Origin: Buxus sempervirens
Taxonomy: Eukaryota; Streptophyta; Magnoliopsida; Buxales; Buxaceae
Assembly: GCA_947561395.2 (NCBI GenBank)
Contig: OX387187.1
Location: 32,159,829 to 32,223,828, forward strand
Length of the DNA: 64,000 nucleotides
Direction: 5' to 3'
The notes under the pieces are model-generated. The model did no database searches and was not told the DNA's origin. It saw nothing but the letters and a program-made list of their open reading frames with translations. Below are positions 5,416 to 62,897 of the stretch, one piece after another. Position numbers and translations under genes: made by a program. Every line of letters starts with the position of its first letter. The stretch's first letter is position 1.

Positions 5416-6193
5416 ATTCATATAATTCGAAGGTTCCCCATCTCACAACAACATTTTCATGCAATAACTTCCTTAAGTGCACCGTGCATTCAAAGGTGAA
5501 CTAGCATAATAGTGTAGATGAAATTTCAGTAAAACAATTATGGTTTCAAAACTGACTTTTCAGAAGTAACACATTATACAGATTCTACTACAGCATCCAA
5601 TCTTCGATTAAACATAAATCAGCAGAACATCTATATTCTCAATTTTGCTTTCATAATCCAATCAATCAAAACAAATGTTATAAAAACCTCAAAACACATT
5701 TTAGATGAGTGGAATAGTCTTAGGATCCCATATAAGGTCACCATACCAAAAAGCAATTAATTCTGAGATAAAAAGTTTCGGACCTCAAAATATTCTAAGT
5801 CTGGTTAAAAACGTTGACTTTTGGTATATAATTTTTCTAGACAAATCCACAAGGAGTTTCGGGCTCAAATTTTGGTTGTAGTCTATTGATGGGTAAACAC
5901 ATCTCCTAGAATTTTCTGGGCTCCTGAATCACTCATCTTGGTATTAAACCCAAACCGGGCTTTTTGATTAAAACCGGGATTTAGGCATGAACTGGAAAGT
6001 TGACTTTTTATTGGCTGGGAATTAGACCTTGGAAGTATTTTTATTGGTTCCAAATGGGGGGTAAAACCTTATTTACATGTAAAGACTTAAGTAAATGGAG
6101 CAATAAATACACATGACATTTACTTAAATGTCTTTCATGTAATTAAGGGGCTATTTTCAACAAATTCTATAATTTGGTAAGTGTATTGGACTA

Positions 6194-11074: not shown

Positions 11075-11169
11075 TTCTCTGTAGACACCCCAAATTGCAC
11101 AAACAATCATAAAAAATCATCATCTCCTTGAAAGCCAGCACAAAATTTGGAGAAAATGAAATTTTACCT

Positions 11170-11311
11170 GTATCCGGCAACTCAGGCCGGATACAAGTAC
11201 ATTCCTTCGTATCCGGTCTCAACTGCCGGATACAAGGAACCTTTAGTGCATCCGGTATCATATACCGGATACATTAAATCTCTAGTGTATCCGGCCTGAG
11301 ATGCCGGATAC
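11170..11311. repeat. Four-unit palindrome array, 39-bp period
   Basis: 25-bp units start at 11170, 11209, 11248 and 11287, exactly 39 bp apart. Each is GTATCCGG (GCATCCGG in unit 3), 9 nt, CCGGATAC. Unit 3 has GGTAT, CAT, ATACC at its centre, giving an almost complete 11-bp stem. The array is about 155-300 bp upstream of the LTR TATA box. Confidence 0.95.
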
Positions 11312-11467
11312 ATTAGTTTTTGCTCAAAATTAGGGTTTTCCGAGAGAAATCACTTTTTACCATCATGTCCCTCATTAAATGAGGGGGAATCTCAGAAACA
11401 GCCTTAGGGTTAAGGTTGGGGGGTTCTAGATATTAAGTTGTGTCTACCAACAACCCTAGCCTTTGCC

Positions 11468-11649
11468 TATAAATAGGAGGCCCCTCCTCAAGCAAATGGC
11501 CAAGTTTTTGGAGATTGAAGAGCTCCGAGTGAAGAAGGGAACCGCTGCCGGATTGCTTCTAGAACCCCAGGTAAGCCTCAACCCTCCTTTATTTTCTGTA
11601 TTTAATTTCTTAAATCTAGATCTCTTCTTCTACCTTTCTGTAGAATAAA
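11468..11649 (+). promoter_or_regulatory. LTR core promoter, leader mini-intron and poly(A) signal
   Basis: TATAAATA at 11468-11475 is followed by a leader in which CAG/GTAAGC (donor at 11571) and a pyrimidine tract ending TTTCTGTAG (AG at 11642-11643) outline a 73-nt intron-like segment. AATAAA follows at once at 11644-11649 and would serve as the poly(A) signal of the R region. The same arrangement is seen at 23988-24169 and in the other family copies. Splicing is inferred. Confidence 0.6.
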
Positions 11650-13372
11650 GCCTTGTTTGTGTATGGAAATCCTTCCCCGGCTCAAAGTATCTCGAGACTC
11701 CCCCTAGCCACAAAACGTGGAGGCAGGATCTAGGAGAAACGAGACTGGGGATTGACCCTAGTACTAGAACCCATCTTGTATAAACCTTTTGATTGAATGC
11801 AAACCGTTTCATATTCAAAGTACCCTTGATTATCTTGAAGAACCGTGTTTAACGAGGAGAGAGAACAAAGGGAAACGATAATGGAACGGAACCCTAGGCT
11901 GTTCTAGAACCTTATTTTGTTGAATCTATATGAATGCTATATTGTTGTATTGATATTGTATGAATTTTCACTCTTGCACACATATTGCACTATTTTGGCG
12001 GGATAGGCTCACATTTGGGGATTTATTAGATTCATTGTGATAAATCTCTAATAAATGGCCTCAATCAATTCTGGAATGTTTGAAAATGAATTTTAAAGGT
12101 TTTGTGTTCATCCTGCACGAATTGCATACACTTTGTCACATTTTTGTATTGGTTTATCTCAAAATAGGGTTTACTTGACAGCAACTGTACCCTAACTTCG
12201 GACACTCATAACTTCATCATCCGGATGAATTTTGGAGTGATTCCAGAACCATGGGAAAGGTGAGGCTGTCTAGTTTATATCCACCAAATTTCATTGATTT
12301 CTATCAAGCAGATGTTTGACACCTCTCTATCGAAGTTGATTGGTCAGTTCCGGTTTAAATACAGAACTTGTCACTTCGACGGAGCGCCATGTGTTTGTTT
12401 TAAATCCGATTCGAGTGATTTTTGTTTCTGGGCACTCCTTTATGAGTCTATTTTTAACTCCATTTGGTTTCATAATTTTTTGATTTAAATTGTGTCGTGG
12501 AAAGCAGATTTACTCAGAACTGCTCAACAGCACTTTTCTGGATCAATCTGTGATCCTCGCGGCCTGTTCGGGAAGTCACCCAAGGCACATCTGAATGAGT
12601 TTTTGTATGAGGCCAGTTTCTTTTGAAAGATGGCCATACAGGCTTGATTGACACCAAATTTCACGGATTTCTATGTAGTAGATGTTTCTAGGTGATTTTC
12701 CAAAGATGCCCACTTGTCACTTTTAATCATCCCCAGCAGCAACTTTAAAGGAGCATAACTCCTAGGTTTTCAACCGGATCAACTTGAAATTTTGCATAAA
12801 TCTCTTATTTACCATGATCTTTCAAATGGATTTGGTTTGATTCAATTTAAAATTGATTTTGAATAATTTCAAGACAAATGGCATTACTTTTTACCAAATT
12901 TCTCGGATTTGCCTCAATTTGGTTTTGTGCAACTTTTGCTATGATTTCCATCTTTTTGTGATATTCCAGAAGTGATATTGACATAAGAGAAGATCTAAAA
13001 TCCATTTGGATCTTCATGTGAATATATCATACACTTCTTTTTTTTTCAAGGCTTTTTCATGATTTTTTAGCAAGCTTCCTATTTTCTTTTTAGCATGAAC
13101 AAACACTTGGCAACCACCTTGTGTGGGTGAATGGGGGTGCCTAACACCTTCCCCCGTTCATAATCTAATCCCCTTACCCATCTCTGGATTTGATTTTCAA
13201 GTAGGGTTATTTTTACCCTAGAATTTGCCTTTTAACCCTTTTTGCACATTTTTGATGATTTTGGTGTCCATTCTCACCTCCAAATTATGAATTGTGGCGA
13301 CTCTCCCATTTTTGCGTTGAGCCCGTGTGTTGACGGAGGGAGATCACTCCGGTGATTTTTCCATGTCTCACA

Positions 13373-15697: not shown

Positions 15698-15774
<77 letters not shown>

Positions 15775-16163
15775 TGAAAAACACTCAACAGATTTGTTAA
15801 ATATTGTAACACTGTTACAACTGATAAGGAACAGATAAGATATTCTCTTAACTGTTTTTCCAGATTCGAAATTTCTTATCTGAAAAGATAATCTCTTAAT
15901 TGGATAATATTTATCAGATCAAAGAGATGCAAAACTTATCTGAGAAATCAGAATTAATTTAAATCTCATTAACTTAGAGATAAGAATTAATTCACACTTT
16001 AAAGAGATAAGGTTGAATCATGTTAACCACTATCTTTAAAGAGATAAGACAAAATCAGATTAACAACTATCTTATCAAACAATCTACGAATTTCAAAAAG
16101 TTTCTCAGCAAATATCTGGTCAACAAATTAATGCCACATCATCAAAATCCAACAAACTTAACA
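15595..16163 (-). mobile_element. 3' LTR remnant of the SIRE-like Copia, with long (AT)n
   Basis: Homologous to 48980-49492. Starts (minus strand) TGTTAAGTTTGTTGG at 16163. The left end is cut off by the Ogre-type LTR at 14366-15594. It contains (AT)36 at 15701-15772; the partner LTR has only (AT)10 at 49081-49100. Confidence 0.85.
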
Positions 16164-23600: not shown

Positions 23601-25911
23601 TGTAGACACCCCAAATTTCACAAACAATCATCAAAAATCATCATCTCCTTGAAAGCTAGCACAAAAATTGGAGAAAATGAAATCTTACCTGTATCCGGCA
23701 ACTCAGGCCGGATACAAGTACTTTCCTTTGTATCCGGTCTAAAGTGCTGGATACAAGGAGTCTTTAGTGTATCCGGTATCATATACCGGATACATTAAAG
23801 CTCTAGTGTATCCGGCCTGAGATGCCGGATACATTAGTTTTGCTCAAAATTAGGGTTTTCCGAAAGAAATCACTTGTTACCATCATGTCCCTCATTAAAT
23901 GAGGGGAAATCTCGGAAACAGCCCTAGGGTTAAGGTTGGGGGGTTCTAGACATTAAGTTATGTCTACAAACAACCCTAGCCTTTGCCTATAAATAGGAGG
24001 CTCCTCCTCAAGCAAATGGCCAAGATTTTGGAGATTGAAGAGCTCCGAGTGAAGAAGGGAACCACTGCCGGATTGCTTCCAGAACCCCAGGTAAGCCTCA
24101 ACCCTCCTTTATTTTCTGTATTTACTTTCATAGATCTAGATCTCTTCTTCTACCTTTCTGTAGAATAAAGCCTTGTTTGTGTGTGGAAATCCTTCCCCGG
24201 CTCAAAGTATCTCGAAACTCCCCCTAGCCGTAAAACGTGGAGGCGGGATCTAGGAGAAACGAGACTGGGGATTGACCCTAGTGCTAGAACCTATGTAGCA
24301 TAAAGCCTTTTGAATGATTGAAAACCGTTCTATATTCAAAGTACCCTTGATTATCTTGAAGAACCGTGTTTAACGGGGAGAGAGAACAAAGGGAAACGAT
24401 AATGGAACGGAACCCTAGGCTGTTCTAGAACCTTATTTTGTTGAATCTATATGAATGCTATATTGTTGTATTGATATTGTATGAATTTTCACTCTTGCAC
24501 ACATATTGCACTATTTTGGCGGGATAGGCTCACATTTGGGGATTTATTAGATTCATTGTGATAAATCTCTAATAAATGGCCTCAATCAATTCTGGAATGT
24601 TTGAAAATGAATTTTAAAGGTTTTGTGTTCATCCTGCACGAATTGCATACACTTTGTCACATTTTTGTATTGGTTTATCTCAAAATAGGGTTTACTTGAC
24701 AGCAACTGTACCCTAACTTCGGACACTCATAACTTCATCATCCGGATGAATTTTGGAGTGATTCCAGAACCATGGGAAAGGTGAGGCTGTCTAGTTTATA
24801 TCCACCAAATTTCATTGATTTCTATCAAGCAGATGTTTGACACCTCTCTGTCGAAGTTGATTGGTCAGTTCCGGTTTAAATACAGAACTTGTCACTTCGA
24901 CGGAGCGCCATGTGTTCGTTTTAAATCCGATTCGAGTGGTTTTTGTTTCTGAGCACTACTTTATAAGTCTATTTTTAAATCCAACTGGTTTCATAATTTT
25001 GTGATTTAAATTGTGTCGTGGAGAGCAGATTTACTCAGAACTGCTCAACAGCACTTTTCTGGGTCAATCTGTGATCCTCAGGGCCTGTTCGGGAAGTCAC
25101 CCGAGGCACATCCGAATGAGTTTTTGTATGAGGATAGTTTCTGTTGAAAGATGGCAATAAAGACTTCATTGAACCAAATTTCACGGATTTCTATGTAGTA
25201 GATATTTCTAGGTGATTTTCCAAAGATGTCCACTTGCTACTTTTAATCATCCCCAGCAGAAGCTTTAAAGGAGCATAACTCCTAGGTTTTCAACCGGATC
25301 AACTTGAAATTTTGCATGAATCTCTTATTTACCATGATTTTTCAAATGGATTTGGTTTGATTCAATTTAAAATTGATTTTGAATAATTTCAAGACAAATG
25401 GTATTGTCTTTTTTTTTACCAAATTTCCCGGATTTGCCTCAACTTGGTTTTTTGCAACCTCTACTTTGATTTCCATCTTTTTGTGATAGTCCAGAGGTGA
25501 TATTAACATAAAAGAAGATCTGGAATTCATTTGGATTTTCATGTGAAGATATCACATATTTGTCCTTTTTCAAGGTTTTTTATGATTTTTTAACAAGCTT
25601 TCTTTTTTTCTTTTAGCATGAATAACACTTGGCAACCACCTTTTGTGGGTGAATGGGGGTGCCTAACAACTTCCCCCGTTCATAATCTAATCCCCTTACC
25701 CATATCTGGATTTGATTTTCAAGTAGGGTTATTTTTACTCTAGAATTTGTCTTTTAGCATTTTTTTATCTCTTTTTGATTATTTTTAATTCTTTTGGTGT
25801 CCATTCACACCCTAAACAAATGGATGGTGGTGACTCTCACTCTTTACGTCGAGCCCCGTGTGTTGACAGAGGGATGATCATCTCCGGGTGATTTTTTTCC
25901 CATGTCTCACA
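23601..25911 (+). mobile_element. 5' LTR of the giant Gypsy element
   Basis: TGTAGACACC to CATGTCTCACA, 2311 bp. Contains the palindrome array (23691-23832), TATAAATA at 23988-23995, a CAG/GTAAGC donor at 24091 with AG at 24162-24163 and AATAAA at 24164-24169. Confidence 0.95.
23691..23832. repeat. Four-unit palindrome array, 39-bp period
   Basis: Units start at 23691, 23730, 23769 and 23808. Unit 2 has one stem mismatch; unit 3 is a perfect 11-bp stem with loop CAT. Confidence 0.95.
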
Positions 25912-25930: not shown

Positions 25931-27429
25931 ATTTGTGGATTTAAGCCATTTTGTGTATATTCATGCTTTTTACTTATTTTTGAATGCTTGCTACTTTGTT
26001 TAATTCATTTGTGTATATTCTTGTATTTCAAATCAGATTAGGATGCTTTTGAATTTTATATGAATCTAGTCATGTATGTTTTGCTTGATGTTGCCTAAAG
26101 ATTGATTTAGGATAAGCCTATCTTGAAGCATGATTTTGATGCATTTGGTGATAACATGCTCTAATTTGAATTTTGAATACCATGGTTTGAACATGAGAAT
26201 TAGAAGCATGAAATCTAGGAGTTCAGAATTTTTGGGTATTCAAACATGATTCTCATAAAGCATGCTTTTTTGTGCTTAAAACTTTTTTTATTATGCCATG
26301 CCTTTGATTTGGGGTATAGGGGGATTTGATTTGAGCATGAAAATCAAGAACATGAAATCTGGAATTTTAGTGCACATTGTGGATTTTTTTTTTAGCATGT
26401 TCACCAATATACCATATCAAGTAGTTGCCAAATTTTTAGGCATTAATTTGGGGTATATGAGATGCACTTTTGAGCATGAAAATTCTGGAAATTTCAGTGT
26501 ATATTTGGGGGGTTTCAAGCATGTTTAAATGATCAAAACCTTTCTTGTATCATGTCAAGTAGTGCTAAAGTTTTAGGCTTCAATTTGGGGTAAATGGTAC
26601 ACTTTGAGCATGAAAAAGAGCATGAAAATCCAGGTTTAGGGAATGCTTTTGGATTTCAAGCATGCTTCCATGGTTTAATTGTTGTTTGTACAAATAACAT
26701 GTTTTGTATACCACTTTTTGGGCATGTAATATTTTTGTGCATATTTAGTTGCTTTGGTTTTCTTGCTTGCTTGTATTTAGCTTCATTATTTTTGTCATAT
26801 GTACCTTGGCTTGAAATTGAATGCATGGCTACGAAAAAGAGTGGCAAGGGGCTGGGACGTTGTGAATGTTACCACAATTTTAAAATTGCACTTGAGCACT
26901 TGAAACAATTTGCACAGCCTACCCTTTACCTATTTGGAAGTTGAACCATGAATGTGTGTAGCTTGGCGCACCGAGGTCGTTACTTCGGAAAGCGAAAGTG
27001 AAAACATTTACCTTAGAATTTGGGTCAATGATGTGATGACAATGGGATCTGTGATTCGATTCCGGGCATCACTAGACTTGAGTTCTAAGTTGCCAATTAA
27101 GCCAAAACCCAAAAACCATACACTTGAAGGTGGAGAAACATGTTTTCAGCTAAAAGCACACAATTGCGTTTGGGGAATTGGGTGTAAATGTGGGAAGGCC
27201 GTTTGCATGTTTTACAGGCCAAGGTATAATGTGAATACCATATTGAATGAAGGTAATACAAGGTGGAAGGTAAAGCCATGTTCTTTTCATAAATTTGGGG
27301 ATTTTTACAAATATGATGTCCAAGCCCAATTTGGGGCAAGTTTTGAAGGTCAAGTTAAGGCGAACACCAAGTGGGAATGAAAAAAACCAAATCTGGTGAA
27401 AAAATTGAGTCAAAATGGCCATTTCGGCA
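25931..27429 (+). repeat. Leader region with degenerate 135-150-bp repeats
   Basis: About four diverged direct repeats occupy 26150-26680, each built from ATTTGGGGTA, a GAGCATGAAAAT block, an AATTTCAGTG-like block and AAGCATG. An open frame at 26952-27380 (142 codons) contains CVWGIGCKCGKAVCMFYRP but resembles nothing I know and may be chance. Ogre elements have an ORF of unknown role in this position. Confidence 0.5.
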
Positions 27430-27571
27430 ATAACCGGCAACTCAGGCCGGTTAAGAATAATCTTGTGCATATCCGGCATATAATATCGGACACAAAGGAC
27501 TATGTGTGTATCCGGTCATAATGGCCGGATACATTAAGACATATCCTTATCCGGCGATTAATACCGGATAC
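27430..27571. repeat. Internal four-unit palindrome array upstream of gag
   Basis: Units at 27430, 27469, 27508 and 27547, again exactly 39 bp apart although not in an LTR. Unit 1 has TAACCGG/CCGGTTA, a compensated change from TATCCGG/CCGGATA. TATA-like runs follow near 27660-27690. Confidence 0.92.
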
Positions 27572-27839: not shown

Positions 27840-28640
27840 AAAACCTTTGGTTGGTTATTTTTATCAATCAAAGTCAAAATTTTTTAAGACACTTGGAAGC
27901 CTCAGAATATTCCAAAAACCTTTGTTTGGTCACGAGAACCACTCAAAGTCAAATTTTTTAGGACACTTGGAAGCCTCAGAATATTCCAAAAACCTTTGTT
28001 TGGTCACGAGAACCACTCAAAGTCAAATTTTTTAGGACACTTGGAAGCCTCAGAATATTCCAAAAACCTTTGTTTGGTCACTAGAACCACTCAAAGTCAA
28101 ATTTTTAGGACACTTGGAAGCCTTAGAATATTCCAAAAACCTTTGTTTGGTCACGAGAACCACTCAAAGTCAAATTTTTTAGGACACTTGGAAGCCTCAG
28201 AATATTCCAAAAACCTTTGTTTGGTCACGAGAACCACTCAAAGTCAAATTTTTTAGGACACTTGGAAGCCTCAGAATATTCCAAAAACCTTTGTTTGGTC
28301 ACGAGAACCACTCAAAGTCAAATTTTTTAGGACACTTGGAAGCTTCAGAATATTCCAAAACCCTTTGTTTGGTCACGAGAACCACTCAAATTCAAAATTT
28401 TTTAGGACATTTGGAAGCCTCAGAATATTCCAAAAAAAAAAAAAAAAAACCTTGGTTGGTCTTTTTCGTACCAATCAAGTCAAAAAAAAAAAGTAGGACC
28501 TTTGGAAGCCCTAAAATATTCCATGAAAAAAACCTTGGTTGGTCTTTTTCGTACCAATCAAATCAAAAAATTTTGGGACCCTTGGAAGCCCTAAAATATT
28601 CCAACAAAAAAAAAACGAAAAAAAAAAAAAAAACAAATCT
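27840..28640 (+). repeat. 74-bp tandem repeat array, about ten units
   Basis: Core GGACACTTGGAAGCCTCAGA recurs with the equivalent base at 27888, 27961, 28035, 28108, 28182, 28256, 28330 and 28405, then two diverged units near 28496 and 28577. Period 73-75 bp. Because 74 is not a multiple of three, the open frames through it cycle through all three translations, so it is leader rather than coding. Poly(A)-like tracts break up the last units. Confidence 0.93.
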
Positions 28641-28806
28641 GGATTGGTGTTCACCTAACCTACTTGTCTACATGTATAGGGGTGTGACTCAAGTTAAACG
28701 GAAGCTAACATGTTCTGTTAATTTTTTTTACCCAGGTACATTTACTTGCAACCAGGTACACTTATTTGCAACCATTGCTCCTGTGACCAGATCCAAAGCT
28801 CGCATC

Positions 28807-30420
28807 ATGAACACTGAAGAGAACCAAGCCCAAGCTACTGTCCCCACTCAAGATTTTGCTCAGCTGCAGGAGCAAGTGGCCGGTCTGGCCAAGATGCTGG
28901 GTAACCTACTGGCGGCTCAGGCCCAACAGGCCCAGGCCCAAAACCAAGCCTCTACCTCCCATCAGGCACCACCACCTCAGGCCTACATACCGCCTCCGGT
29001 TCAACCCATGCCTGAGCCCATTTCTGAACCAGTCCCTGAACCCATTCTGATCAGGGAAAATACAGCAGAATCAGAGAAAGAACTGGAAAAGGAGAAGGCC
29101 AGAGATGAGATGGAAAAGAAGATTCTACTCAGGATAGAAAGGATCCAGGCAGAGCTGAAGGAAATGAAGGGGGGAAGCAGCCATGGAGGCACCACCTTCA
29201 AAGACCCATGCATGTATCCTGACGTATGTCTACCGGCCAAGTTCAGGTGCCCGGACTTCGACAAATTTGATGGCACAGGCTGCCCATTGAGCCACTTGAA
29301 ATTATACTGCGGGGCCCTATGCCAATTTGGCCGGGATGATGGCATACTGATCCAACTCTTTCAAAGGAGTCTGACCGGGTCAGCTCTCAGGTGGTTCGCT
29401 ACAGTGGACCATGAAAGGATCAGGAGGTGGAAGGACCTAGCCGATGCCTTCTTAGACCAATATAAATTCAACTCTGAGATCGTGCCGGACTGGTACGACA
29501 TGATGAGGATGAGCAAGGGGAAGGATGAACCGGTACGGCAGTACGCCAAGAGGTGGAGAGAGGCCGCCTCCCAGGTCAGGCCACCTATGCAAGAACCGGA
29601 GATGATCTCCACATTCATGGGCACACTGGGGCAGCCCTTCTACAACCATATGGTGGGCCAGATCACCACCAACTTTGCAGCCCTAGTGCAAGTGGCGGAC
29701 TGGATCGAAGAGGGGGTCAGGTCAGGGAGGCTGATAGACTACTCTACTCTGGCTGGGCAGTCTGATTCCTCGGCCTCCATGGCCCAGAAGAAGGGATCCA
29801 GATTCAAGAAGACTGGGGCCCGAAAAGAAGGAGAAGTGAACCTGGTCCAGGCTCCTCCAGCCAAGAAGCCGCTCCACGTCAACATCTCTGCACCCCAACA
29901 GGCCCAGCAGGCCCAGCAGTCTTATCAGACCCTGCTGAATGTCAATTTCACCCCCTCTGTACCAGCAAACCCAAGAAGGGCTTTTACTAGGGAGGAAAGG
30001 GAGGCCTGGTTAGCAAATAGAAAGAACCGGGTTTTCACTCCTCTCCCAATATCTCTGTCCCAGCTGCTGCCAACCCTGCTAAAGGGTGAATACCTGACTC
30101 TGAAAGAGCCCAACCCGAATGCCCCGAAGGGGAGGAATTTTGATCCAGCCGTCACATGCGACTATCACATGGGTGCACCGGGGCACTCTACTGACACTTG
30201 CTGGATGTTGAAGCATGCAGTCCAGGACCTGTTGGACCAGAAGGCCATGGTGTTTAATACTGCTGCACCAGCCCCGTCCGGAAATGACATTGGGCAAAAC
30301 CCTCTGCCTTACCACAATGGGGCAGGCCCATCCAATTCTATCACTGTCATAACCACCACCAGAAGGGCCTTTGACCTATCACAGCTTATAGCTCCAGTTG
30401 GGACCACTGTCCAAGTCTGA
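28807..30420 (+). CDS. Gypsy gag of the giant element
   Basis: Start chosen at the Met of MNTEENQAQ, because the upstream open frame is only tandem repeat. 537 residues. The N-terminal part is Gln/Pro/Glu-rich with a coiled coil (about residues 85-125). The capsid-type Retrotrans_gag region covers about residues 150-320 with FDGTGCPLSHLKLYC, RWFATVDHERIRRW and RWREAASQVRPP. A Tat-type knuckle CDYHMGAPGHSTDTCWMLKH is near the C-terminus (about residues 455-475). It packages element RNA in the virus-like particle. Confidence 0.9.
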   Translation: MNTEENQAQATVPTQDFAQLQEQVAGLAKMLGNLLAAQAQQAQAQNQASTSHQAPPPQAYIPPPVQPMPEPISEPVPEPILIRENTAESEKELEKEKARDEMEKKILLRIERIQAELKEMKGGSSHGGTTFKDPCMYPDVCLPAKFRCPDFDKFDGTGCPLSHLKLYCGALCQFGRDDGILIQLFQRSLTGSALRWFATVDHERIRRWKDLADAFLDQYKFNSEIVPDWYDMMRMSKGKDEPVRQYAKRWREAASQVRPPMQEPEMISTFMGTLGQPFYNHMVGQITTNFAALVQVADWIEEGVRSGRLIDYSTLAGQSDSSASMAQKKGSRFKKTGARKEGEVNLVQAPPAKKPLHVNISAPQQAQQAQQSYQTLLNVNFTPSVPANPRRAFTREEREAWLANRKNRVFTPLPISLSQLLPTLLKGEYLTLKEPNPNAPKGRNFDPAVTCDYHMGAPGHSTDTCWMLKHAVQDLLDQKAMVFNTAAPAPSGNDIGQNPLPYHNGAGPSNSITVITTTRRAFDLSQLIAPVGTTVQV

Positions 30421-33120: not shown

Positions 33121-36069
33121 GTGCCGGTACCAAAGAAGGACGGAAAAGTCCGAATGTGCGTGGAATATAGAGACTTGAACAAGGCAAGCCCAAAGGACGA
33201 TTTTCCGCTTCCACACATCGACATTCTGGTCGATAATACTGCGGTACATAGCCTGTTCTCCTTCATGGATGGGTTCTCTGGATATAATCAGATCAAGATG
33301 GCTAAGGAGGATCAAGAGAAAACAGCATTTATCACACCTTGGGGCACATTCCACTATACAGTCATGCCATTCGGACTCAAGAATGCCGGGGCAACATATC
33401 AGCGGGCCATGACAGCACTATTCCATGACATGATCCACAAGGAGATGGAGGTCTATGTGGGCGATATGATTGCCAAATCATGCAAGGAGGAGGACCACTT
33501 GATCAATCTGAAGAAGGTGTTTGATCGGCTCAGAAAGTACAGTCTACGGCTTAACCCAGCAAAATGCGTCTTTGGGGCTACATCAGGAAAGTTGCTCGGG
33601 TTTATTGTGAGCCGAAGAGGAATTGAAATTGATCCGGCTAAAGCCAAGGCCATAATTGAAATGCCAGCACCCAGAACAGAAAAGGAGGTTCGTGGTTTTC
33701 TCGGAAGAATTCAGTACATAAGCCGGTTCATAGCACAGCTCACTGCTATCTGTGAACCAATTTTTAAGCTTCTGAGGAAAGATAACCCGACGGTCTGGAA
33801 TAAGGATTGCCAGCAGGCCTTTGATACGATCAAGGAGTATTTATTGAACCCACCTGTGCTAGTGCCACCAACTCCAGGAAGACCACTGAACCTGTACTTG
33901 TCAGTGTTGGAAACGTCAATGGGATGTGTCCTAGGGCAGCATGATGAGACTGGTAGAAAAGAAAGAGCCATTTACTATCTGAGTAAAAAATTCACAGAAT
34001 ATGAAGCCAAGTACTCACCATTGGAGAAGACTTGCTGTGCTCTAGTGTGGGCAACTCAGAGGCTAAGGCATTACTTCCTTAGTCACTCCACACTATTGAT
34101 ATCCCGGATGGACCCACTGAAGTATTTATTTGAGAAACCGGCACTGACTGGCAGGACGGCTAAGTGGCAACTACTACTGTCCGAGTTTGACCTCACGTAC
34201 ATCACTCAGAAGTCGATCAAAGGTCAAGCCATAGCGGATCACCTGGCTGCACATCCTTTGTCAGAATATCAACCCTTGAAGACCAACTTTCCAGATGAGG
34301 CAATTTTGTACACTGAAGAGGAGGAGAGTGAGAGTTCTTGGCAGATGTTCCTTGATGGGGCCGCCAATATGAATGGGAACGGAATAGGGGCAGTCTTGGT
34401 TAAACCAGATGGTTCACACATCCCGATTGCAGTAAAGCTGAGATTCCAGTGCACCAATAACATAGCAGAATATGAAGCATGCATAATTGGATTGCAAGCG
34501 GCCATGGATCATGGAGTAGAGGAACTTGACGTATACGGGGATTCGAGTCTTATCATCTTCCAAACAACTGGTGAGTGGAAAACCAAGGATCACAAATTGA
34601 TCCCCTATCACCAGTATTTGGAAGAAATAAGCACAAATTTCACTCGAATTTCCTTCAACTATATGCCAAGGGCCAAAAATCAATTTGCGGATGCTCTAGC
34701 AACATTGGCTTCAATGGTCAGCATACCAGAAGGAGTAGACATCAGACCGCTAGAAATTGAGGTTAGAGATGAACCGGCTTACTGTCTCGTTCTAGAGGGA
34801 GCACCAAAAGAAGAAGCACCGTGGTTTCAAGATATCAAAAATTTCTTGAACAATCGGAGTCTGCCGGGAAATGCCACTGCTACTGAGAAGAGGACAATAC
34901 AGAGATTGGCTGGTCAATTTCTGCTAAGTGGTGGACATGTGTACAAGAGGTCGCATAACGATGTTCTGCTAAGATGTGTAGCCAAGGCTGAGTTGGAAAT
35001 GCTGATCGAGACCGTACATGGAGGAGTCTGTGGGCCCCATATGAGTGGGCACATGTTGGCAAAGAAGATCCTGAGGCTGGGATATTACTGGACGACCATG
35101 GAACATGATTGCTGTATACATGTCAGAAGGTGCCATCAATGCCAAATCTATGCAGATAATAAGCATGCACCCCTTGGTGAGTTGCACAACATGACATCAC
35201 CGTGGCCCTTCTCTATGTGGGGCATAGATGTCATCGGCATGATCTCCCCTAAGGCATCGAACGGACACAGATTCATCCTGGTAGCGATTGATTACTTTAC
35301 TAAATGGGTAGAGGCAGCCTCATATGCAAACATCACAAGCAACCATGTTATTAAATTTTTGAAGCACAACATCATTTGTCGCTATGGACTGCCAAGTGCT
35401 ATAGTATCGGATAATGCTTCAAATATTAAGAACAAGGACATGAAGAAGATGTGTGAGCAGTTTCAGATCATCCACCACAAGTCAGCTCCGTACAGACCAA
35501 AGATGAATGGGGCAGTAGAAGCAGCAAATAAAAATATAAAGAAAATCATTCAGAAGATGGTAGTGAGTTACAAAGATTGGCATGAAATGCTACCACTTGC
35601 TCTACATGCTTACAGAACCTCGATCCGGTCTTCAACTGGGGCAACCCCGTACTCCCTAGTCTATGGGATGGAAGCAGTCTTGCCCGTGGAAGTAGAGATC
35701 CCATCACTCCGAGTGCTCATGGAAGCAGAATTAGAAGAAGCCGAATGGGTACAGTCAAGACATGATCAACTTAACCTGATTGAAGAAAAGTGGTTGAAAG
35801 CGCTTTGCCATGGTCAGTTGTACCAGAAGAGAATGGCCCGGGCCTACAATAAGAAAGTGAGGCCCAGAACTTTCCAAGAAGGAAACTTGGTGCTAAAGAA
35901 AATTCTACCATTTCTGGAAGATCCTCGTGGTAAGTTCAAGCCCAATTGGGAAGGGCCATATGTCGTCAAGAAAGTCCTATCAGGGGGTGCACTCATCTTG
36001 GCAGAAATGGATGGGTCAGATTTTCCTGAGCCAATTAACTTTGATGCAGTAAAAAGGTATTTTCCTTGA
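33121..36069 (+). CDS. Gypsy RT, two RNase H domains and integrase
   Basis: RT shows KVRMCVEYRDLNKASPKDD, FSFMDGFSGYNQIKMA and FITPWGTFHYTVMPFGLKNA. The first RNase H follows (LYLSVLETSMGCVLGQ, KYSPLEKTCCALVWA). Then an archaeal-type second RNase H starts FLDGAANMNGNGIGAVLV with NNIAEYEACIIGL and VYGDSSLI, a hallmark of the Tat lineage. Integrase has the HHCC zinc region (HVRRCHQCQIYA), core WGIDVIGMI and DNASNI, and APYRPKMNGAVEAANK. The 3' end carries a basic chromodomain-less tail. The frame is long and mostly intact. Confidence 0.93.
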   Translation: MPVPKKDGKVRMCVEYRDLNKASPKDDFPLPHIDILVDNTAVHSLFSFMDGFSGYNQIKMAKEDQEKTAFITPWGTFHYTVMPFGLKNAGATYQRAMTALFHDMIHKEMEVYVGDMIAKSCKEEDHLINLKKVFDRLRKYSLRLNPAKCVFGATSGKLLGFIVSRRGIEIDPAKAKAIIEMPAPRTEKEVRGFLGRIQYISRFIAQLTAICEPIFKLLRKDNPTVWNKDCQQAFDTIKEYLLNPPVLVPPTPGRPLNLYLSVLETSMGCVLGQHDETGRKERAIYYLSKKFTEYEAKYSPLEKTCCALVWATQRLRHYFLSHSTLLISRMDPLKYLFEKPALTGRTAKWQLLLSEFDLTYITQKSIKGQAIADHLAAHPLSEYQPLKTNFPDEAILYTEEEESESSWQMFLDGAANMNGNGIGAVLVKPDGSHIPIAVKLRFQCTNNIAEYEACIIGLQAAMDHGVEELDVYGDSSLIIFQTTGEWKTKDHKLIPYHQYLEEISTNFTRISFNYMPRAKNQFADALATLASMVSIPEGVDIRPLEIEVRDEPAYCLVLEGAPKEEAPWFQDIKNFLNNRSLPGNATATEKRTIQRLAGQFLLSGGHVYKRSHNDVLLRCVAKAELEMLIETVHGGVCGPHMSGHMLAKKILRLGYYWTTMEHDCCIHVRRCHQCQIYADNKHAPLGELHNMTSPWPFSMWGIDVIGMISPKASNGHRFILVAIDYFTKWVEAASYANITSNHVIKFLKHNIICRYGLPSAIVSDNASNIKNKDMKKMCEQFQIIHHKSAPYRPKMNGAVEAANKNIKKIIQKMVVSYKDWHEMLPLALHAYRTSIRSSTGATPYSLVYGMEAVLPVEVEIPSLRVLMEAELEEAEWVQSRHDQLNLIEEKWLKALCHGQLYQKRMARAYNKKVRPRTFQEGNLVLKKILPFLEDPRGKFKPNWEGPYVVKKVLSGGALILAEMDGSDFPEPINFDAVKRYFP

Positions 36070-36991: not shown

Positions 36992-38742
36992 CTAGTCTCT
37001 GTCTCCTAGCCACTCCTTAAGCTCCCGAATCCGAGCCGCCTGAGCTGCAATGACTCCTGAAGCCCCCTCTGCAGCGGGATCACTTAGGAAGGAAATGACC
37101 TCATTTGAAAGGGCCTGTCTAATCCGCATACTCCTCAGGCTGGCCAAAGTATCCTGGTACTTCTGCCGTATCATACGGACCTCAAAGCGACGGGCCTGCC
37201 TCTGCTCCTCCAACTTCTCCTCCATGGCAGTACGGCGGGATATCTGCTCCTCAAGTTGCCTCTCCAGATAAATGCCCTGTATCCTGAGCTCCTGGGCCTC
37301 CCGTACCCATATCTGCTGAAGCCGCTTATGAGAAGCCCGCTCAGACTCTAGAATATCCTCATAAGTGGGAGCCAAGACTGCATGAGGATCTTCGGGTACT
37401 GGTGCCTGACTTTGTATCTACTCCTTGATCCAGAAGAGATAATCCTTCACATGGGCTTCTGAGAAGACTGGACCACGCATGAAGCGGACATAGGACCACT
37501 CCTTCATCAACCAGGCATTCAGCTTCATAGTATCTGGAGAAAGGGGCCCAAGACGATCCTCATACCCACTTGGGATGATAATCCCCTGGGTCGTTCGGAA
37601 CTGACGAAGGACCCTCAGAGGAAGATATAGCACTGCATGTCTCAGGCTAGCTAGGATCAGAAAGTTGCGGTCAAGGAAGCTAATCACTGTCTCTGCATTG
37701 GGCTGGTAAGTACCAGGCCATCTCACCTGGTCATCCTGAAGTGAGCCCAAGAAAGTGAACCAGCCCTGTTTGCCCCCTGGAATATCTGGACATCCCCGGT
37801 TGCTCATCAAGATAGGGACTTTCAGGCTCGGGAAGAAGTGTCGATTGATTTCTTCAATCTGACTCAGATGATCAAGTAGCCAAAGCTGCAAAGGAATAGA
37901 GATATATCAGCACATTGTAAAAAGAAAAAAAGCAAAAAAGCAAGAAAAAAGCAAAAAAGCAAGAAAAAAGCAAAAAAGGCAAAAAGAAAGCCAAAAAGCA
38001 AAAAAGAAAACAAAAAAGAAAAAAATATTTTTACCTACAAGATCGGAGCACATGCTAGGAAGCGTTTCGACTTCCTATTATAGCAATCAGTCAAGGCCTA
38101 ATACATCCCAGCCAAAACCATAGGGGCCAACCTCTCCCTCTCCCTAACCTGGCATATCACTGAAATCAAGGCCAAGTCCACCTCATCATCATCCCATGGG
38201 AAAAGCAACTGGTTGACCACTATCAGGGTCAAGGCATTGAATCGGGCCTCCTTGTTCTCCCCTCTCAAAAGCCTCTCAGTCAAAAAAGCCTTAGATAGGG
38301 TTAATAGGGTGTCAGAATCCCCTAAGTCCTTCTTCCCTATGCCCAAAAATGTAGAAGCTTCCTTCTTGTAACTGGGCCTAAGAGGTGGATTCACCACCTT
38401 CTCATCAAACCTCAAGCCCAGAATGGTCTCCACCTCCTCAATGGTTGGAGTCATCTCATGGTTCCCAAAACGGAACAAGTTGAGGTCGGGAACCCAATGA
38501 CCAATCATGGCCTCTATGATTTCCCACTTGAAGGGAACCTTGGGAATGAGCAGGGTGTGGCCTAGATTTGTAGAATCCCATCTCCTCTCCTCATCTAGGG
38601 TCATAGAGTTAACCCATCTTGTGTAAAAAGAATCCATGGGTTTATACCTAGTAAGATTTGGGGGTTTTGATCTAAAAGGTTGTTTTGCAGGGGAGGCAGT
38701 GTGGACAGACAATAATGGGGCAGAAGATGACCCGGATTCCAT
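36992..38742 (-). CDS. Antisense gene A: plant-mobile-domain-like, several exons
   Basis: Three open blocks on the minus strand are listed as seen. 38742-38098 starts MESGSSSAPLL and contains FYTRWVNSMTLDEERRWD, FKWEIIEAMIGHWVPDLNLF and HEMTPTIEEVETILGLRF, the pattern of the aminotransferase-like plant mobile domain (MAIN/MAIL relatives). 37891-37418 contains LQLWLLDHL and PILMSNRGCPDIPGG. 37375-36992 is a coiled coil rich in Arg/Glu. Gaps hold pyrimidine-rich tracts (minus strand) as expected of introns; one is a GCAAAAAA-type repeat (37920-38030). Its own TATA box lies at 38853-38860, so I start at Met 38742 and not at the upstream Met 38835, which would precede the likely start of transcription. 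Extra antisense ORFs with this domain are known from Tat-lineage elements. Molecular role unknown. Confidence 0.7.
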
Positions 38743-38871: not shown

Positions 38872-39013
38872 GTATCTGGCATATCAGGCCGGATACAAAG
38901 CTTTCCATTCATATCCGGCAAAGAATGCCGGATACAAAGAGGTTTTAGCGTATCCGGCATATTATGCCGGATACAAAGAAAACTCAATGTATCCGGCCTG
39001 ATATGCCGGATAC
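38872..39013. repeat. Internal four-unit palindrome array at antisense promoter
   Basis: Units start at 38872, 38911, 38950 and 38989 with the same 39-bp period as the LTRs. Unit 3 is a perfect 11-bp stem (GTATCCGGCAT, ATT, ATGCCGGATAC). The array lies directly upstream of the antisense TATA box. Confidence 0.93.
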
Positions 39014-39234: not shown

Positions 39235-41887
39235 CTATGCAGGATCATCCCCGCGTCCTCGGCCGCGTCCACCTCTACGGCCTCTCCCCCAAAGCGATCG
39301 GGCCTTAAAGTAGGCAAGAATGCGCTCGGCTGCATGGCGAGGATGCCGACCCACCACCTGCTGGAGCTGATACTCCAAGCAATACTCCTCGAGGTCTGGG
39401 GGCGGAGCAGGAGCAGAGTCAGAAGAAGCCTCTGGCTCAGCGGCAACCGGCCCAACTAGGCCCTCATCCATAGTAGGCTCTGCTCCCATAGCTCTAGAAG
39501 GCCCAGCATCAGCAGCAGAGGGACCAGGAGCAGAAGTAGCTGGGTCCACAGAAAAAATCAGAAAATCAAGACATAAGGAAGAACCAAAGAGGAAAATTAA
39601 AAGAGAACATACCCGGAATGTTTGCAGCAGGAAGAGGAGGATCCGGCTCAGCAGGACCAGCCGCTGGGGCATCCTCAGGATCAGCAGCCCGAGCTGGAGA
39701 CGGATCAGGAACAAAGAAGTCATGCTCATGGACTGGGCCCTGCACAAGTCAAAAAGCTATATCAGAATAACAGAAGCAGGGAAATGAGAGAAATGAAAAT
39801 ATGAGAAAACCAGATACCTGTCTAGCCTGGAGCTCAGCAACTAGGGCCTCCAGCTCCCTGATCCGGGCATCCTTCTGGGCCACGACCGCATCATGCTCAG
39901 CGATCATATCATCGATCGCGGCCCGCTGGCTCTCGAACCGGTCCTGGATGATGTTTAGCTCGTGTACCTGCCAACAAGGACAGAATTGGGGTCAGAAATG
40001 CATAAAGAAAAGAAGTGGATAAAAACAGGAGGATCACAAGACTCACCGTATCCTCGTGGATCCAAATACAGATCCCGCCTATCTCAGTCACCCCGGCACG
40101 AGTGGGTCGATCCATCAAGCATCCGATGGAAACTCTCTGGATCCACTCGTCGTAATCCCCATCTACTGTGAGCCCCTCCGCATCCATGAAGTGATCGAGT
40201 TGATCCACGTCGAAGCCCGGGAGGAGTGTGTCGGGCCCATAGGAGGAGGAAGAACGGGGATGCGAAGTGTGCCCGTGTGTTGGAAGTACAGGCGCTATCC
40301 TAAGTACATCACCCTACCAAGCCTCCCAAGGAAGCACTGGTAGGGCTGACGTCGGAGATCTCTCTCGAAGGCATCCTGTACTGCCATCTCACGGGCAACT
40401 CCAACATCCACGTCATATGGACGGGATAGAATGAGCTGCAAAGAAGCAAAGTTGTCAGATACAGTCAAGAGACAGGAATAAAAGTAAAAGGAAAAGGGGT
40501 AGAAGATTTACATCAGATCGGCGAGCACGGTCCAAGTGCACCCGAGCAGTGCGAGGCTGACTCCTATCAGCATCTCGGACCTGGGCCGACCACCGCAAAG
40601 CCACGGGAAAATCATCAACCTCAGGAACTGGGGAGGGACGGAAGAAGGTCATGTAGGTGTACATAAACACCTGGAAAAAGGGAAATCAGGCAGAAATAAA
40701 GAGGAATAAAGCCTAAAAAATTAAATCAGACAGATAAATCCAATACCTGCAGAATCTGCCAGAAGAACCGGCAACTGACTCCATCGCCTCTCGGGGATGC
40801 TAGGCCTCGAACCACTCGGCACAACCCGGCCAGAATGGTCCCATAAATGAGTCGACCCCATGCTAGCTGACGGGTCTGGCGGAAATCCCTCAAGGCATCC
40901 AAGAAGAGTGGGCTGACACTGGTAGTATCCTCTGGGAAGAAGCAGCTCCCAAGCATCAGCAGGAATACATGGCGGAAGATAGGGACAAAGCGGCATCCTC
41001 CACAGCAACAGTCTCGTGCCTCCCCTCAAAATGTCGAGCCAGGCTCTCCCGCAGCCAACTAATGGAGAGACGGCCACTCCGCCCATCCCAAGCAGCATGG
41101 GGCAGATCCTGATATCCCAGGAGGAGGCCAACATCCTCTGCAAAAGGCCGATCCAAGACGATGGTCCGCCCCGTCAAAGGAATGCCGGTGATCATCACGA
41201 AATCTGAGGGGCGGATCCCTAGCTCCACGTCCGGTAAATGGAATGACTGGGTCTCCGGGAAGTATCTCTCCATCATGGCGAATATAAGTGGACGATCAGC
41301 TCTGAAGGAGGGAATACTGATAAAGTGATCCAGGTGGTACCTCCCGAACTCGCGTCTGAGTGCCGGAGAGAGAGACTGTGCCAACTCGCTGAATCTGCCC
41401 CAGCTGCCTCGCAAATGAGAGGAATGATAGGGGAGCGGCACATCTGCCCTGATGCACATGGAGGGGTGGCTATCCAAGCCACTGAGAAGCTCTGTATCAT
41501 GAACAGAGGCCCTCAGCTCCTTAGAGACCCCTGACAAAGCCACGGCAACACCCTCCTGAGCTGCACCTCTGGCTCTACCTCGGCCTCTGCCACGACTTGC
41601 CCTCAGGGGCCTGATCCTGAACTCTGCCTCGGCCTCTGCCTCGACCTCGAGCCGGTGCAACCGTAGGCTAATTTCCAGAGAAAGGTGTGAAGGTTGTGAA
41701 GGAAAGGAGAATAGAAGAAAGAAAAGAGAGAAAGAGCTTGAAAGCCTACCTCCGCAGAGCTCTCTCGGGAGTCACCTAATGGCTCAGACAAGGTGGCGCT
41801 AGAACTCGCCTCTGTCCGAGCCCGCGAGGTAGAAGGCTGGTCAGCAGGGTCAACCTCCTCTCTAACTCGGGAATGACTCCTAGCCAT
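39235..41887 (-). CDS. Antisense gene B: MAIN-like plant mobile domain protein, many exons
   Basis: Minus-strand blocks: 41887-41740 (MARSHSRVREEVDPADQ, Ser-rich); 41660-40956, with an RGRGRGRA basic tract, then FGRYHLDHFISIPSFRADRP, MERYFPETQSFHLPDVEL and MITGIPLTGRTIV, matching the core of MAIN-LIKE plant mobile domain proteins (W/YrPETHTFHLPxGE, then LGLPVDG); 40956-40721 (LGSCFFPEDTTSVSPLFL, WGRLIYGTILAGL); 40670-40500; about 40435-40320; about 40208-40030; a coiled coil near 39960-39830 (RIRELEALVAELQARQ); and 39547-39235 ending GRGRRGGRGRGRGDDPA. Blocks are separated by 70-130-bp gaps with AG or GT borders. Expressed MAIN/MAIL proteins act in silencing and genome stability in Arabidopsis; function here is unknown. 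Confidence 0.72.
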
Positions 41888-43006: not shown

Positions 43007-45304
43007 TGTAGACACCCCAAATTGCACAAACAATCATCAAAAATCATTATCTCCTGGAAAGCCAGCACAGAATTTGAAGAAAATAAACTTTTACCTGTAT
43101 CCGGATACTCCATCCGGATACGAGTACTCCTTCCCGTATCCGGATACTCATACCAAATACATGTGAGCCTTAGTGTATCCGGTACCATGTACCGGATACC
43201 TTAAGGCCCTTTGTTATCCGGTCTGACATACCGGATACCTTAAGTTTGCTCAAAATTAGGGTTTTCCGAGAGCTTTTCACTTTTACCATCATGTCCCTCA
43301 TTAAATGAGGGGAAATCACGGAAATGACCTTAGGGTTAAGGTTGGAGGGGTTCTAGACATTAAGTTGTGTCTACCAATGACCTTAGCCCTTGCCTATAAA
43401 TAGGAGCCTCCTCCTTGAGCAAAGGGCACACAACTCTTGTTTTGAATTCTCGCAAAGAAGAACTCCAAGAGAAGAAGAAAACCGCTGTGGAATCGCCTCC
43501 AGAACTCAGGTAAGCCTCAACTTTTCTTTTTATTTTCTGTCTTTACATTCCTAGATCTAGATCTCTTCTTCTACCTTTCTGTAGTGTAAAGCCTTGTTTG
43601 TATGTGTGGAAATCCTTCCCCGGCTCAAAGTATCTCAAGACTCCCCTAGCCGTAAAACGTGAAGGCGGATCTAGGAGAAACGAGACTGGGGATTGACCCT
43701 AGTGCTAGAACCCATGTAGCATAAGGCCTTTTTGATTGATTGAAAACCATTCCATATTCAAAGTACCCTTGATTATTTCGAAGATCCGTGTTTAACGGGG
43801 AGAGAGAACAGAGGGAAACGATAATAGAACGGAACCCTAGGCTATGCTAGAACCTATTTTGTTGAATCTATATGCATGTGGTATTGATCTTGCTTGGTTT
43901 TTCACTCTTGCACATACATATCACTATTTTGGCAGGATAGGCTCATAGTTGGGGTTTATTGCATTTATTGTGATAAATCTCAAATAAATGGCCTCAATCA
44001 ATTCTGGAGTGTTTTTAAATGTTTTTCAAAGGTTTTGGATTCATCTCACACGAATCTCACACACTTTGTCAATTTTCGGATTTGATTTTCTTCAAAAGTG
44101 GCTTAACTTGACAGCACCTGTACCCTTACTTCGGACGCCCATAACTTCATCATCCGGATGAATTTTGGGGTGATTCTAGAACCATGGGAAAGGTGAGGCT
44201 GTCTAGTTTATGTCCACCAAATTTCATGAATTTTCATCTAGCGGATTTTTGACACCTCTCTGTCGAAGTTGAGTGGACAGTTCAGGTTCAAGTACAGAAC
44301 TTGTCACTTCGACGGACCGCCATGTGTTCGTTTTAAGTCCGATTCGAGTGATTTTTATTTCTGAGTACTCCTTTTTGAGTCTATTTTCAAATCCAGTTGG
44401 TTTCATAATTTTTGGATTCCATTTGAATTATTGGTAGCCGATTTACTCAGAACTGCTCATTTGCACTTTTCTGGGTAAATCTGTGATCTTCGGGGCCTGT
44501 TCGGGAGACCACCCAAGGCACATCCGAAGGGATTTTTGTATGAGGCTAGTTTCTTTTGAAAGATGGCCATACAAACTTCAATCACACCAAATTTCGTAGA
44601 TTTTTATTGAGTGGATATTTCTATGTAATTTCTCAAAGTTGCCCACTCATCACTTTTAAAAATCCCCAGCAGCAACTTCAAAGGAGCATAACTCCTAGGA
44701 TTTTTATCGGAATGAAGTGAAATTTTGCATGAGACTCTTATTTACTGTAATCTTTCAAATGGATTTGGTTTGGTTCAATTTAATATTGGATTTGAATGAT
44801 TTTAAGGCAAATGGCATACTTTTTACCAAACTTCCCGGATTTGATTCAACTTGGTTTTGAGCGACTTGTGCTTTGATTTCCATCTTTTTGTGGTATTCCA
44901 GAAATGATATTGACATAAGAGAGGATCTAGAATCCATTTAGATCTTCATGTGAAAATATCATACATTTGACCTTTTTCAAGGTTTTTCATGATTTTTAGC
45001 AAGCTTTCTTACTTTCTTTATGCATGAACATATACTTGGCTACCACTTCGAGTGGATGAATGGGGGTGCCTAACACCTTCCCCCGTTCATAATCTAATCC
45101 CCTTACCCATCTCTGGATTTGATTTTCAAGTAGGATTGTTTTTATCCTAGAATGTTTCTTTTGTCTCTTTTTTGCTTATTTTTTATCCTTTGGTGTCCAT
45201 TCTCACCCCAAAATTATGAATGGTGGCGACTCTCCCACTTTTGCGTTGAGCCCGTGTGTTGACGGAGGGATGATCACTCCGGTGATTTTTTCCCATGTCT
45301 CACA
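43007..45304 (+). mobile_element. Solo LTR, Ogre-type, target duplication GTTAG
   Basis: TGTAGACACC to CATGTCTCACA, flanked by GTTAG at 43002-43006 and 45305-45309. More diverged from the flanking LTRs than those are from each other, so it is a different source copy inserted into the giant element. The AATAAA after the leader AG is not conserved here. Confidence 0.92.
43097..43238. repeat. Four-unit palindrome array, 39-bp period
   Basis: Units at 43097, 43136, 43175 and 43214. Unit 3 is perfect (GTATCCGGTAC, CAT, GTACCGGATAC), with central pairs differing from other copies yet still complementary. Confidence 0.93.
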
Positions 45305-48650: not shown

Positions 48651-49492
48651 TGTTAGATCTATTAGTGATATACCAAGATGAACACAAGGAGATTTTAACG
48701 AGGTTCGGTATTAACCTATTCCTCGGGACCACGTCCAGATGATGAACAATCCACTAAAGATCAAAACGATTACAAACACCAATAAGGTCTTACACAATTA
48801 AAAGAATCCCTCTTGAATTTGTCGCCAAAGTGTAGAATCTTCTTTAGGGTCTTGTTCAGCGAGCTCCCCTCGACTTTAAGATAGATTGAACTCCCTTCAA
48901 TCTACAGAGTGCAGCAAGGCTCCCCCTCGACTTATGCATGCATGATTGAACTCCCTTCAATATGCACTTGTCTTCTCCCGAAGACTTCAAATTCTTCTCC
49001 CGAAGAATGATGATTCAAATGATACTTAGAAATCTGTTCTTGAACGTCCAAGGAGTTGACTCATCATCAAACTCACGTTCATATATATATATATATATAT
49101 CCTGAAAAACAGTCAACAGATTTGTTAAATATTGTAACACTGTTACAACTGATAAGGAACAGATAAGATATTCTCTTAACTGTTTTTCCAGATTCGAAAT
49201 TTCTTATCTGAAAAGATAATCTCTTAATTGGATAATATTTATCAGATCAAAGAGATGCAAAACTTATCTGAGAAATCATAATTAATTTAAATCTTTGTTA
49301 ACTTAGAGATAAGAATTAATTCACACTTTAAAGAGATAATGTTGAATCATGTTAACCACTATCTTTAAAGAGATAAGACAAAATCAGAATAACAACTATC
49401 TTATCAAACAACCTACGAATTTCAAAAAGTTTCTCAGCAAATATCTGGTCAACAAATTAATGCCACATCATCAAAAGCCAACAAACTTAACA
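48651..49492 (-). mobile_element. 5' LTR of the SIRE-like Copia
   Basis: On the plus strand it runs from TGTTAGATCT to AACTTAACA. Intact partner of the remnant at 15595-16163. (AT)10 at 49081-49100. TACTC follows at 49493, but the opposite flank is lost. Confidence 0.9.
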
Positions 49493-55666: not shown

Positions 55667-55780
55667 ACATGCAAAAGCTCCTATTCAAATTTTTGTTTCA
55701 AATAACAAAAGAACACTTGTTTTTTTTTTCATTTGGCCAATTACTCAACATTTTATGTGGTGAAATTTGGGGTGTCTACA

Positions 55781-59708: not shown

Positions 59709-59751
59709 ATTGGTATTGGAGCGAGTAACCAGATCCTTGACTCTGTTAGTC

Positions 59752-62892: not shown

Positions 62893-62897
62893 AATTC

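Follow-up and report, generated by a model that had tools for sequence, protein, structure and literature searches.

The retrotransposon, its LTR copies and its genes

The window, i.e. the whole 64-kb stretch of DNA that was analyzed, harbors a 24.9-kb Ty3/gypsy retrotransposon of the Tat type together with further copies of its LTR, and the evidence below pertains to this one window and this one LTR family. The genes and LTRs are listed here, together with the palindrome arrays located in the copies outside the element's own LTR pair.

23601-48528, plus strand: Ty3/gypsy element, Tat type, 24.9 kb, with TSD CATCC on both sides; holds a nested solo LTR
23601-25911, plus strand: 5' LTR, 2311 bp, starting with TGTAGACACC and ending with TGTCTCACA; a PBS-like stretch follows 25911 (by eye)
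28183-30420, plus strand: gag ORF, stop to stop, with Retrotrans_gag (PF03732) in 28291-30420 (Pfam)
33121-36069, plus strand: pol ORF with RT, RNase H, a second RNase H-like domain and integrase (Pfam RVT_1, RT_RNaseH, RVT_3 and rve)
36992-38742, minus strand: antisense gene 1, ATG at 38742, DUF7745/plant mobile domain (PMD) in its first ORF (38883-38098)
40956-41887, minus strand: antisense gene 2 (predicted), ATG at 41887 right after an acceptor-like CTTATAG; PMD-like ORF 41771-40956 in another frame
46254-48528, plus strand: 3' LTR, 2275 bp, with the polypurine-like AAAGAGGGGCAGT just before it (by eye)
11080-13372, plus strand: solo LTR, TSD TTCTC; array 11170-11311, TATA-like box 11467
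43007-45304, plus strand: solo LTR nested inside the element 23601-48528, TSD GTTAG; array 43097-43238, box 43394
50874-53657, plus strand: LTR copy without internal region, TSD GAAGT; array 51444-51585, box 51741
50527-55780, minus strand: more diverged LTR, interrupted by the 50874-53657 insertion; array 55537-55666, box 55370

The element is bounded by a TG...CA LTR pair and a 5-bp TSD, with the PBS and PPT recognized by eye only. Its two LTRs are 95.7% identical, with 56 substitutions over the 2210 bases aligned from the array flank to the LTR end. By self-comparison and by their end sequences, the LTR copies throughout the region share TGTAGACACC at the start and TGTCTCACA at the end. For the copy at 50874, the alignment to the other LTRs begins only about 28 bp to the left of its array, and an earlier part of it (51223-51402) matches 5970-6147 at 76%.

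The pol ORF contains a second RNase H domain, which we take to be the marker of the Tat lineage, and the element is assigned to the Tat type on the basis of this domain and not of a tree. The best 120 of 5169 proteins related to the pol ORF (E 1e-50 or better) are 58-67% identical to it, and the named ones among these 120 are from plants, except for one labelled Salmonella enterica, which is probably plant contamination of a bacterial record. With such LTR lengths and an internal region of 20.3 kb (about 18 kb when the nested solo LTR is subtracted), the element exceeds the size ranges given for Retand in the available excerpt of PMC11963269, i.e. 315-1,194 bp for the LTR and 7,380-12,869 bp for the internal region.

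Between the 5' LTR and the internal array at 27430, two plus-strand ORFs of 116 and 142 aa are found at 26594-27380, for which the only Pfam match is a weak one to Cyclotide (16.9 bits, below the cut-off of 25). A 74-bp tandem repeat (27868-28436, 7.7 copies, 96% match) separates the same array from gag, and the stop-to-stop gag ORF begins within this repeat.

Both antisense genes lie between pol and the 3' LTR. For the PMD, which is reported from Ogre-type eORFs, they score 34.6 bits (gene 1, just below the cut-off of 34.9) and 31.6 bits (gene 2, below the same cut-off), and DUF7745 in the first ORF of gene 1 exceeds its own cut-off (43.8 bits against 26). The remaining ORFs of gene 1 (37906-37418 and 37417-36992) gave no Pfam match. 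Since its PMD-like ORF lies in another frame and scores below the cut-off, gene 2 is a predicted model that may be broken. When ten ORF pieces were scanned at E 0.1, TRP28 (PF04195) was not among the matches, DUF7745 and PMD being found instead; NCBIfam gave no match for the four pieces scanned, and a protein search with the antisense exons returned 465 candidates, none at E 0.001.

Anatomy and placement of the palindrome arrays

All nine arrays described in the earlier note are present in the sequence, at the coordinates given there. By searching the window for a unit pattern of GTATCCGG, 9 nt and CCGGATAC, with up to three mismatches, we found 31 matches, where 100 dinucleotide shuffles gave 0.02 on average and never more than 1; after the addition of a unit at 27430 that the pattern search had missed, 32 scorable units were distributed over the nine arrays. 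The register consists of 9 nt inside the unit and 14 nt between units, and the resulting 39-bp period is exact in 22 out of 23 steps. The sole exception, in the array at 55537, measures 66 bp and coincides with a truncated unit. As a raw count, a further 20 half-sites with at most one mismatch lie elsewhere in the window. The arrays of the element itself are the following.

23691-23832, plus strand: 4-unit array in the U3 of the 5' LTR, ending 155 bp ahead of its TATA-like box (23987)
27430-27571, plus strand: 4-unit internal array in the interval between the 5' LTR and gag, without an assigned promoter
38872-39013, no strand assigned: 4-unit internal array between pol and the 3' LTR, 12 bp before the CTATAAATG that antisense gene 1 has at 38860 on the minus strand
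45658-45721, no strand assigned: 2-unit internal array about 0.5 kb before the 3' LTR, upstream (on the minus strand) of the predicted leader of antisense gene 2
46344-46446, plus strand: 3-unit array in the U3 of the 3' LTR, ending 155 bp ahead of its box (46601); a 39-bp unit has been lost in phase

Certain parts of the earlier description have to be adjusted. Eight of the arrays had been regarded as being at full spacing, and their steps are indeed 39 bp, but the array at 45658 has just two units and that at 46344 just three. The array at 55537, described as reversed, belongs to an LTR that is entirely minus-strand; when read in LTR orientation, its units line up with those of the other arrays. 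Perfect 11-bp stems, said to be many, are found in 6 of the 32 units. The array at 55537 also contains a repeated spacer, which together with the in-phase loss of a unit at 46344 points to repeat turnover.

Unit 4 approximates the reverse complement of unit 1, with 1-2 mismatches in five of the eight comparable arrays and 7-10 in the other three (27430, 43097 and 55537). As the last unit thus resembles the first one inverted (e.g. in 23691-23832 and 38872-39013), the array as a whole is inverted in its organization.

The arrays had been presented as a property of every copy of an LTR family. This holds for six of the nine, which lie within LTR U3 (11170, 23691, 43097, 46344, 51444 and 55537), while one third (27430, 38872 and 45658) are internal to the element 23601-48528. 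From the end of the LTR arrays to CTATAAATAG the distances are, in the order given, 156, 155, 156, 155, 156 and 167 bp. More generally, a CTATAAAT box is found at most 170 bp from seven of the nine arrays, on either strand; CTATAAAT occurs eight times in the window, counting both strands, and six of these occurrences are in the LTRs in question. No TATA-like box of the scanned form adjoins the arrays at 27430 and 45658.

Two of the internal arrays precede antisense reading frames. On the minus strand, the four units of the array at 38872 are followed after 12 bp by CTATAAATG, and then by a pyrimidine-rich stretch, the ATG at 38742 and the DUF7745 ORF. The array at 45658 is followed on the same strand by a pyrimidine-rich stretch, a donor-like GTGAGT, about 1.1 kb, an acceptor-like TATAG and the ATG at 41887, where the donor-like GTGAGT falls on the empty site of the solo LTR nested there (43007-45304).

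Divergence and paired change within the units

Variable columns were counted in an alignment of the five plus-strand LTR copies, with the minus-strand LTR (50527-55780) as the sixth. Among the five, 7/64 columns were variable in the half-sites, 21/36 in the 9-nt centres and 22/42 in the 14-nt spacers, as compared with 29/148 in the stretch from the array to the TATA-like box and 133/738 in a 741-bp LTR stretch downstream. The half-sites are thereby less variable than the centres (P=1e-6). Compared with the downstream stretch, their lower variability fails to reach significance among the five LTRs (7/64 vs 133/738, P=0.17) but reaches it once the sixth is included (13/64 vs 311/735, P=0.0005). 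Centres and spacers, on the other hand, are both more variable than the downstream stretch among the five LTRs (P=2e-7 and 1e-6, respectively).

Mean pairwise divergence among the five copies gives a similar picture, with 0.047 for half-sites, 0.29 for centres, 0.286 for spacers, 0.087 for the stretch from array to box and 0.083 for the downstream stretch. The 28 bp to the left of the array are also more diverged than the downstream stretch (0.196 vs 0.083), so that the rapid divergence of centres and spacers is to some extent a property of the region. With the minus-strand copy as the partner, the excess is less marked (half-sites 0.123, centres 0.405, spacers 0.602, downstream 0.355). In comparisons with the most diverged copies, centres and spacers differ by up to 0.51 and 0.60, and yet the 39-bp step is kept. 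In other words, the half-site letters and the register are kept, and the intervening sequence turns over faster than most of the LTR compared.

The scarcity of indels in the array part of the LTRs is suggestive of a kept register, although it provides a weak test of spacing: 0-1 were seen vs 2.8-4.3 expected in the four pairs that include the 43097 copy, 1-2 vs 2.4-2.9 in the three remaining pairs that involve the minus-strand copy, and 0-1 vs 0.6-1.9 in three close pairs. Taken as a gauge of half-site hypomethylation, CpG decay gave 2/37 half-site cells vs 18/194 elsewhere in the LTR (P=0.75).

These divergences bear on a rival account, in which the arrays are a functionless structural tandem repeat that arose through slippage and was then duplicated inside the element, as the tandem arrays of other Tat elements may be. 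About half of the recent Retand elements have tandem arrays in the interval from pol to the 3' LTR, with no function stated for them in the excerpt of PMC11963269, and the turnover seen at 46344 and 55537 would be expected of such a repeat. The preservation of the half-sites (0.047) against centres and spacers at about 0.29 and a downstream level of 0.083 in the five copies would not, and neither would the recurrence of arrays by TATA-like boxes on both strands, and we hold this account to be decidedly improbable.

Unit-to-unit gene conversion was likewise considered as the source of the variation between units. In four LTR arrays, the distance over centre plus spacer was 0.10-0.51 between units at the same position, 0.58-0.69 between units at different positions of two arrays and 0.58-0.64 within an array. 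Since units at the same position are closer to one another than units at different positions, conversion within arrays is rejected as the sole cause among these four; when two internal arrays were compared, the distances for same and different positions were alike (0.57 vs 0.55).

The units were further said to show compensated stem changes in every copy. Within the 8-bp arms of the 32 units, 18 out of 256 unit-by-pair cells differ from the canonical pair, and only three of these are changed on both sides and paired, whereas 14 are changed on one side and one is changed on both sides and unpaired. As mismatches (15) thus outnumber paired changes (3) in the arms, compensation in every copy was an overstatement, although double changes as such do exceed the controls. 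Among the 27 distinct units, 15 double-changed cells were found vs 7.3 in shuffles, of which 0 out of 500 reached as high a number, in a control that ignores relatedness. The excess pairing is found at the position pairs 9/17 (P=0.008), 8/18 (P=0.027), 4/22 (P=0.04) and, marginally, 11/15 (P=0.057), and is absent at 10/16 (12/26 vs 12.4 expected), 12/14 and the remaining arm pairs.

Relatedness was taken into account in a count restricted to the arrays that lie in LTRs (six arrays with 22 units), based on an LTR tree assumed from LTR identity, (55,(43,(51,(11,(23,46))))), and averaged over 200 resolutions of ties. This gave about 7.0 branch-by-pair cases changed on both sides, of which about 6.0 were still Watson-Crick, and about 21 changed on one side only. 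Six slid controls, some of them with fewer pairs, gave 0.5-2.6 double changes with 0.0-0.74 still Watson-Crick, so the claim of covariation is borne out at this level. In one resolution, the six double changes comprise three at 9/17, two at 8/18, which may be a single event, and one at 11/15. CpG sites are the most prone to mutation, and the four altered cells at the CpG pairs 6/20 and 7/19 are all one-sided, which argues against double deamination as the whole cause of the paired change. Covariation within the units is consequently real, but it is modest and not universal. For the coupled changes in the centres, the candidate causes are a preference for symmetry, the extrusion of hairpins and hairpin-templated correction.

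The last of these candidates would have one arm copied onto the other in replication or reverse transcription, so that symmetric changes arise by mutation, without any selection on pairing. It would account for the coupled changes in centres that are otherwise free, and the short loops are suitable for it. With 15 of the 18 altered arm cells still unpaired, however, such correction would be inefficient, and it leaves both the nearly fixed half-site letters and the fixed period unexplained; as an account of the arrays we find it improbable.

A different cause of paired change would be RNA hairpins that act in the transcript, e.g. in packaging, export or stability or as a source of small RNA, where the copy in the U3 of the 3' LTR and the internal arrays would all be included. 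In addition to the excess of paired changes over the controls, the array of the 5' LTR, the only one folded, gave -92 kcal/mol, as compared with -35.9 on average for shuffled sequences (z -13.6), in a fold where units 1 and 4 pair with each other. That duplex is broken, however, in the arrays at 27430, 43097 and 55537 (7-10 mismatches), and a conserved cloverleaf by pairing of units 1 and 4 is rejected, as it fails in three of the eight comparable arrays. The half-site letters are themselves nearly fixed, beyond what pairing alone would call for. Moreover, the one-sided arm changes comprise four G-T, seven A-C and three other mismatches, and the four G-T against seven A-C, although small numbers, do not favor wobble on the sense strand. 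Since antisense gene 1 has its TATA-like box downstream of the array at 38872, its transcript would not include that array. Rfam yielded no match in the window, on either strand, at the gathering score. Of the two readings that had been offered for the arrays, a site for a dimeric protein in DNA or an RNA hairpin, the DNA site fits better, and the hairpin is rather unlikely.

A putative shared control site and comparable systems

On balance, we lean towards the arrays being promoter-proximal sites in double-stranded DNA for a dimeric or oligomeric regulator, shared as operator or enhancer by sense and antisense genes. The half-site letters are nearly fixed, the register is fixed, seven of the nine arrays lie near TATA-like boxes on both strands, and more than one likely transcription unit has a copy, all of which argue for an array of DNA sites. 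The near-complementarity of units 1 and 4 in five arrays would suit a DNA site that is free of orientation. On the other side of the balance, a dimer with independent half-sites does not require any correlated change at 8/18, 9/17 and 11/15.

The mechanism would be as follows. A dimeric or oligomeric, sequence-specific protein, either a host factor or one encoded by the element, would read the GTATCCGG/CCGGATAC half-sites in their fixed register. The U3 array of the LTR would serve transcription of the gag-pol unit, while the array at 38872 would serve antisense gene 1, directly before its TATA-like box, and that at 45658 antisense gene 2, before its likely leader. Jointly, the arrays would constitute a common operator or enhancer by which sense and antisense genes are co-regulated.

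Repeated elements in U3 are familiar from plants, as Tnt1-type copia elements have U3 boxes, i.e. repeated promoter elements that set the transcription of the LTR element. The present arrays resemble these in being repeated U3 elements of a plant LTR element, and differ in being 39-bp dyad arrays that are repeated at internal antisense genes. LTR U3 is treated in general terms in the excerpt of PMC10794571.

Mobile elements with arrayed binding sites are also found outside the LTR class, and the putative control site shares several features with them. The VANDALs, which are DNA transposons, provide a case of a binder encoded by the element itself; in an anti-silencing target array of the VANC type, such a binder brings about a loss of DNA methylation. 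According to the excerpt of PMC5735166, the motif targeted by VANC is dense in several noncoding regions of the element, spreads by the formation of tandem repeats and serves as the binding site of a protein that the element encodes; for VANC21 the motif is YAGTATTAY, with its copies arrayed in a single orientation. As far as that excerpt goes, the likeness lies in a short repeated motif that occupies several noncoding regions of one mobile element by way of tandem repeats, and the difference in the dyad site, the fixed 39-bp period and the LTR element found here, for which the binder is only hypothetical. By analogy with the VANC arrays, an element-encoded binder would be an attractive candidate. 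The element might then even be a self-contained regulon, in which the antisense PMD/DUF7745 protein or proteins, alone or with a host partner, would bind both the arrays of the LTR and those of the promoters from which they are themselves expressed. The retrotransposon would thereby sense or activate itself in trans as VANDAL does, and centres and spacers would change fast to escape homology-based silencing. This extension, drawn by analogy, we consider distinctly unlikely.

The setting of the internal arrays is otherwise that of Tat elements, in the excerpted sources on which the comparison is based. Retand has antisense ORFs, among them an antisense TRP28 (PF04195) ORF in 97% of clusters (PMC11963269), gene23 of Grande is transcribed in antisense from its own promoter (PMC7264820), and the plant mobile domain is found in 57% of Ogre elements (PMC6317226). 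A long region between pol and the 3' LTR with antisense ORFs is common to these and to the present element, whereas palindromic arrays in a fixed register, common to the LTR and to likely antisense promoters, are found here and not in Retand, Grande or Ogre as described in those excerpts. The function of Tat-type antisense genes is stated to be unknown, and a regulatory role has been proposed (PMC11963269, PMC7264820, in the text available). A defined, repeated site that the LTR has in common with an antisense promoter, in a fixed register, would offer a concrete bait for the regulator, and makes this proposal directly testable.

Another promoter motif linked to plant mobile domain proteins is the Arabidopsis DOWN motif, which is genetically tied to the PMD proteins MAIN and MAIL1 and occurs as CATGCAGTTT in the MORC1 promoter (PMC7156037, PMC9899485, both as excerpts). 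DOWN was rejected as the repeated site, the half-site here being GTATCCGG/CCGGATAC and not CATGCAGTTT.

Palindromic arrays of fixed period common to LTR and antisense promoters were described in none of the matches listed from the open-licence literature, as represented by titles and the starts of abstracts. An exact 47-base pattern covering one and a half units had 0 matches in the collections viral_contigs and genome_contigs. Short patterns from the pol protein gave 4 and 9 stretches in these two, respectively, none of them confirmed as a relative, and a plasmid search returned no match. As none of the three is a collection of plant genomes, these searches are silent on other plants.

Lastly, two further repeats are found in the window. 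A direct repeat pair (58941-59709 and 62124-62893, 94% identical) flanks an ORF at 60667-61545, and the region 58941-62893 is possibly a short second LTR element. A 412-bp duplicate, 97.8% identical, is found at 15753-16163 and 49081-49492, with one copy on each side of the element.
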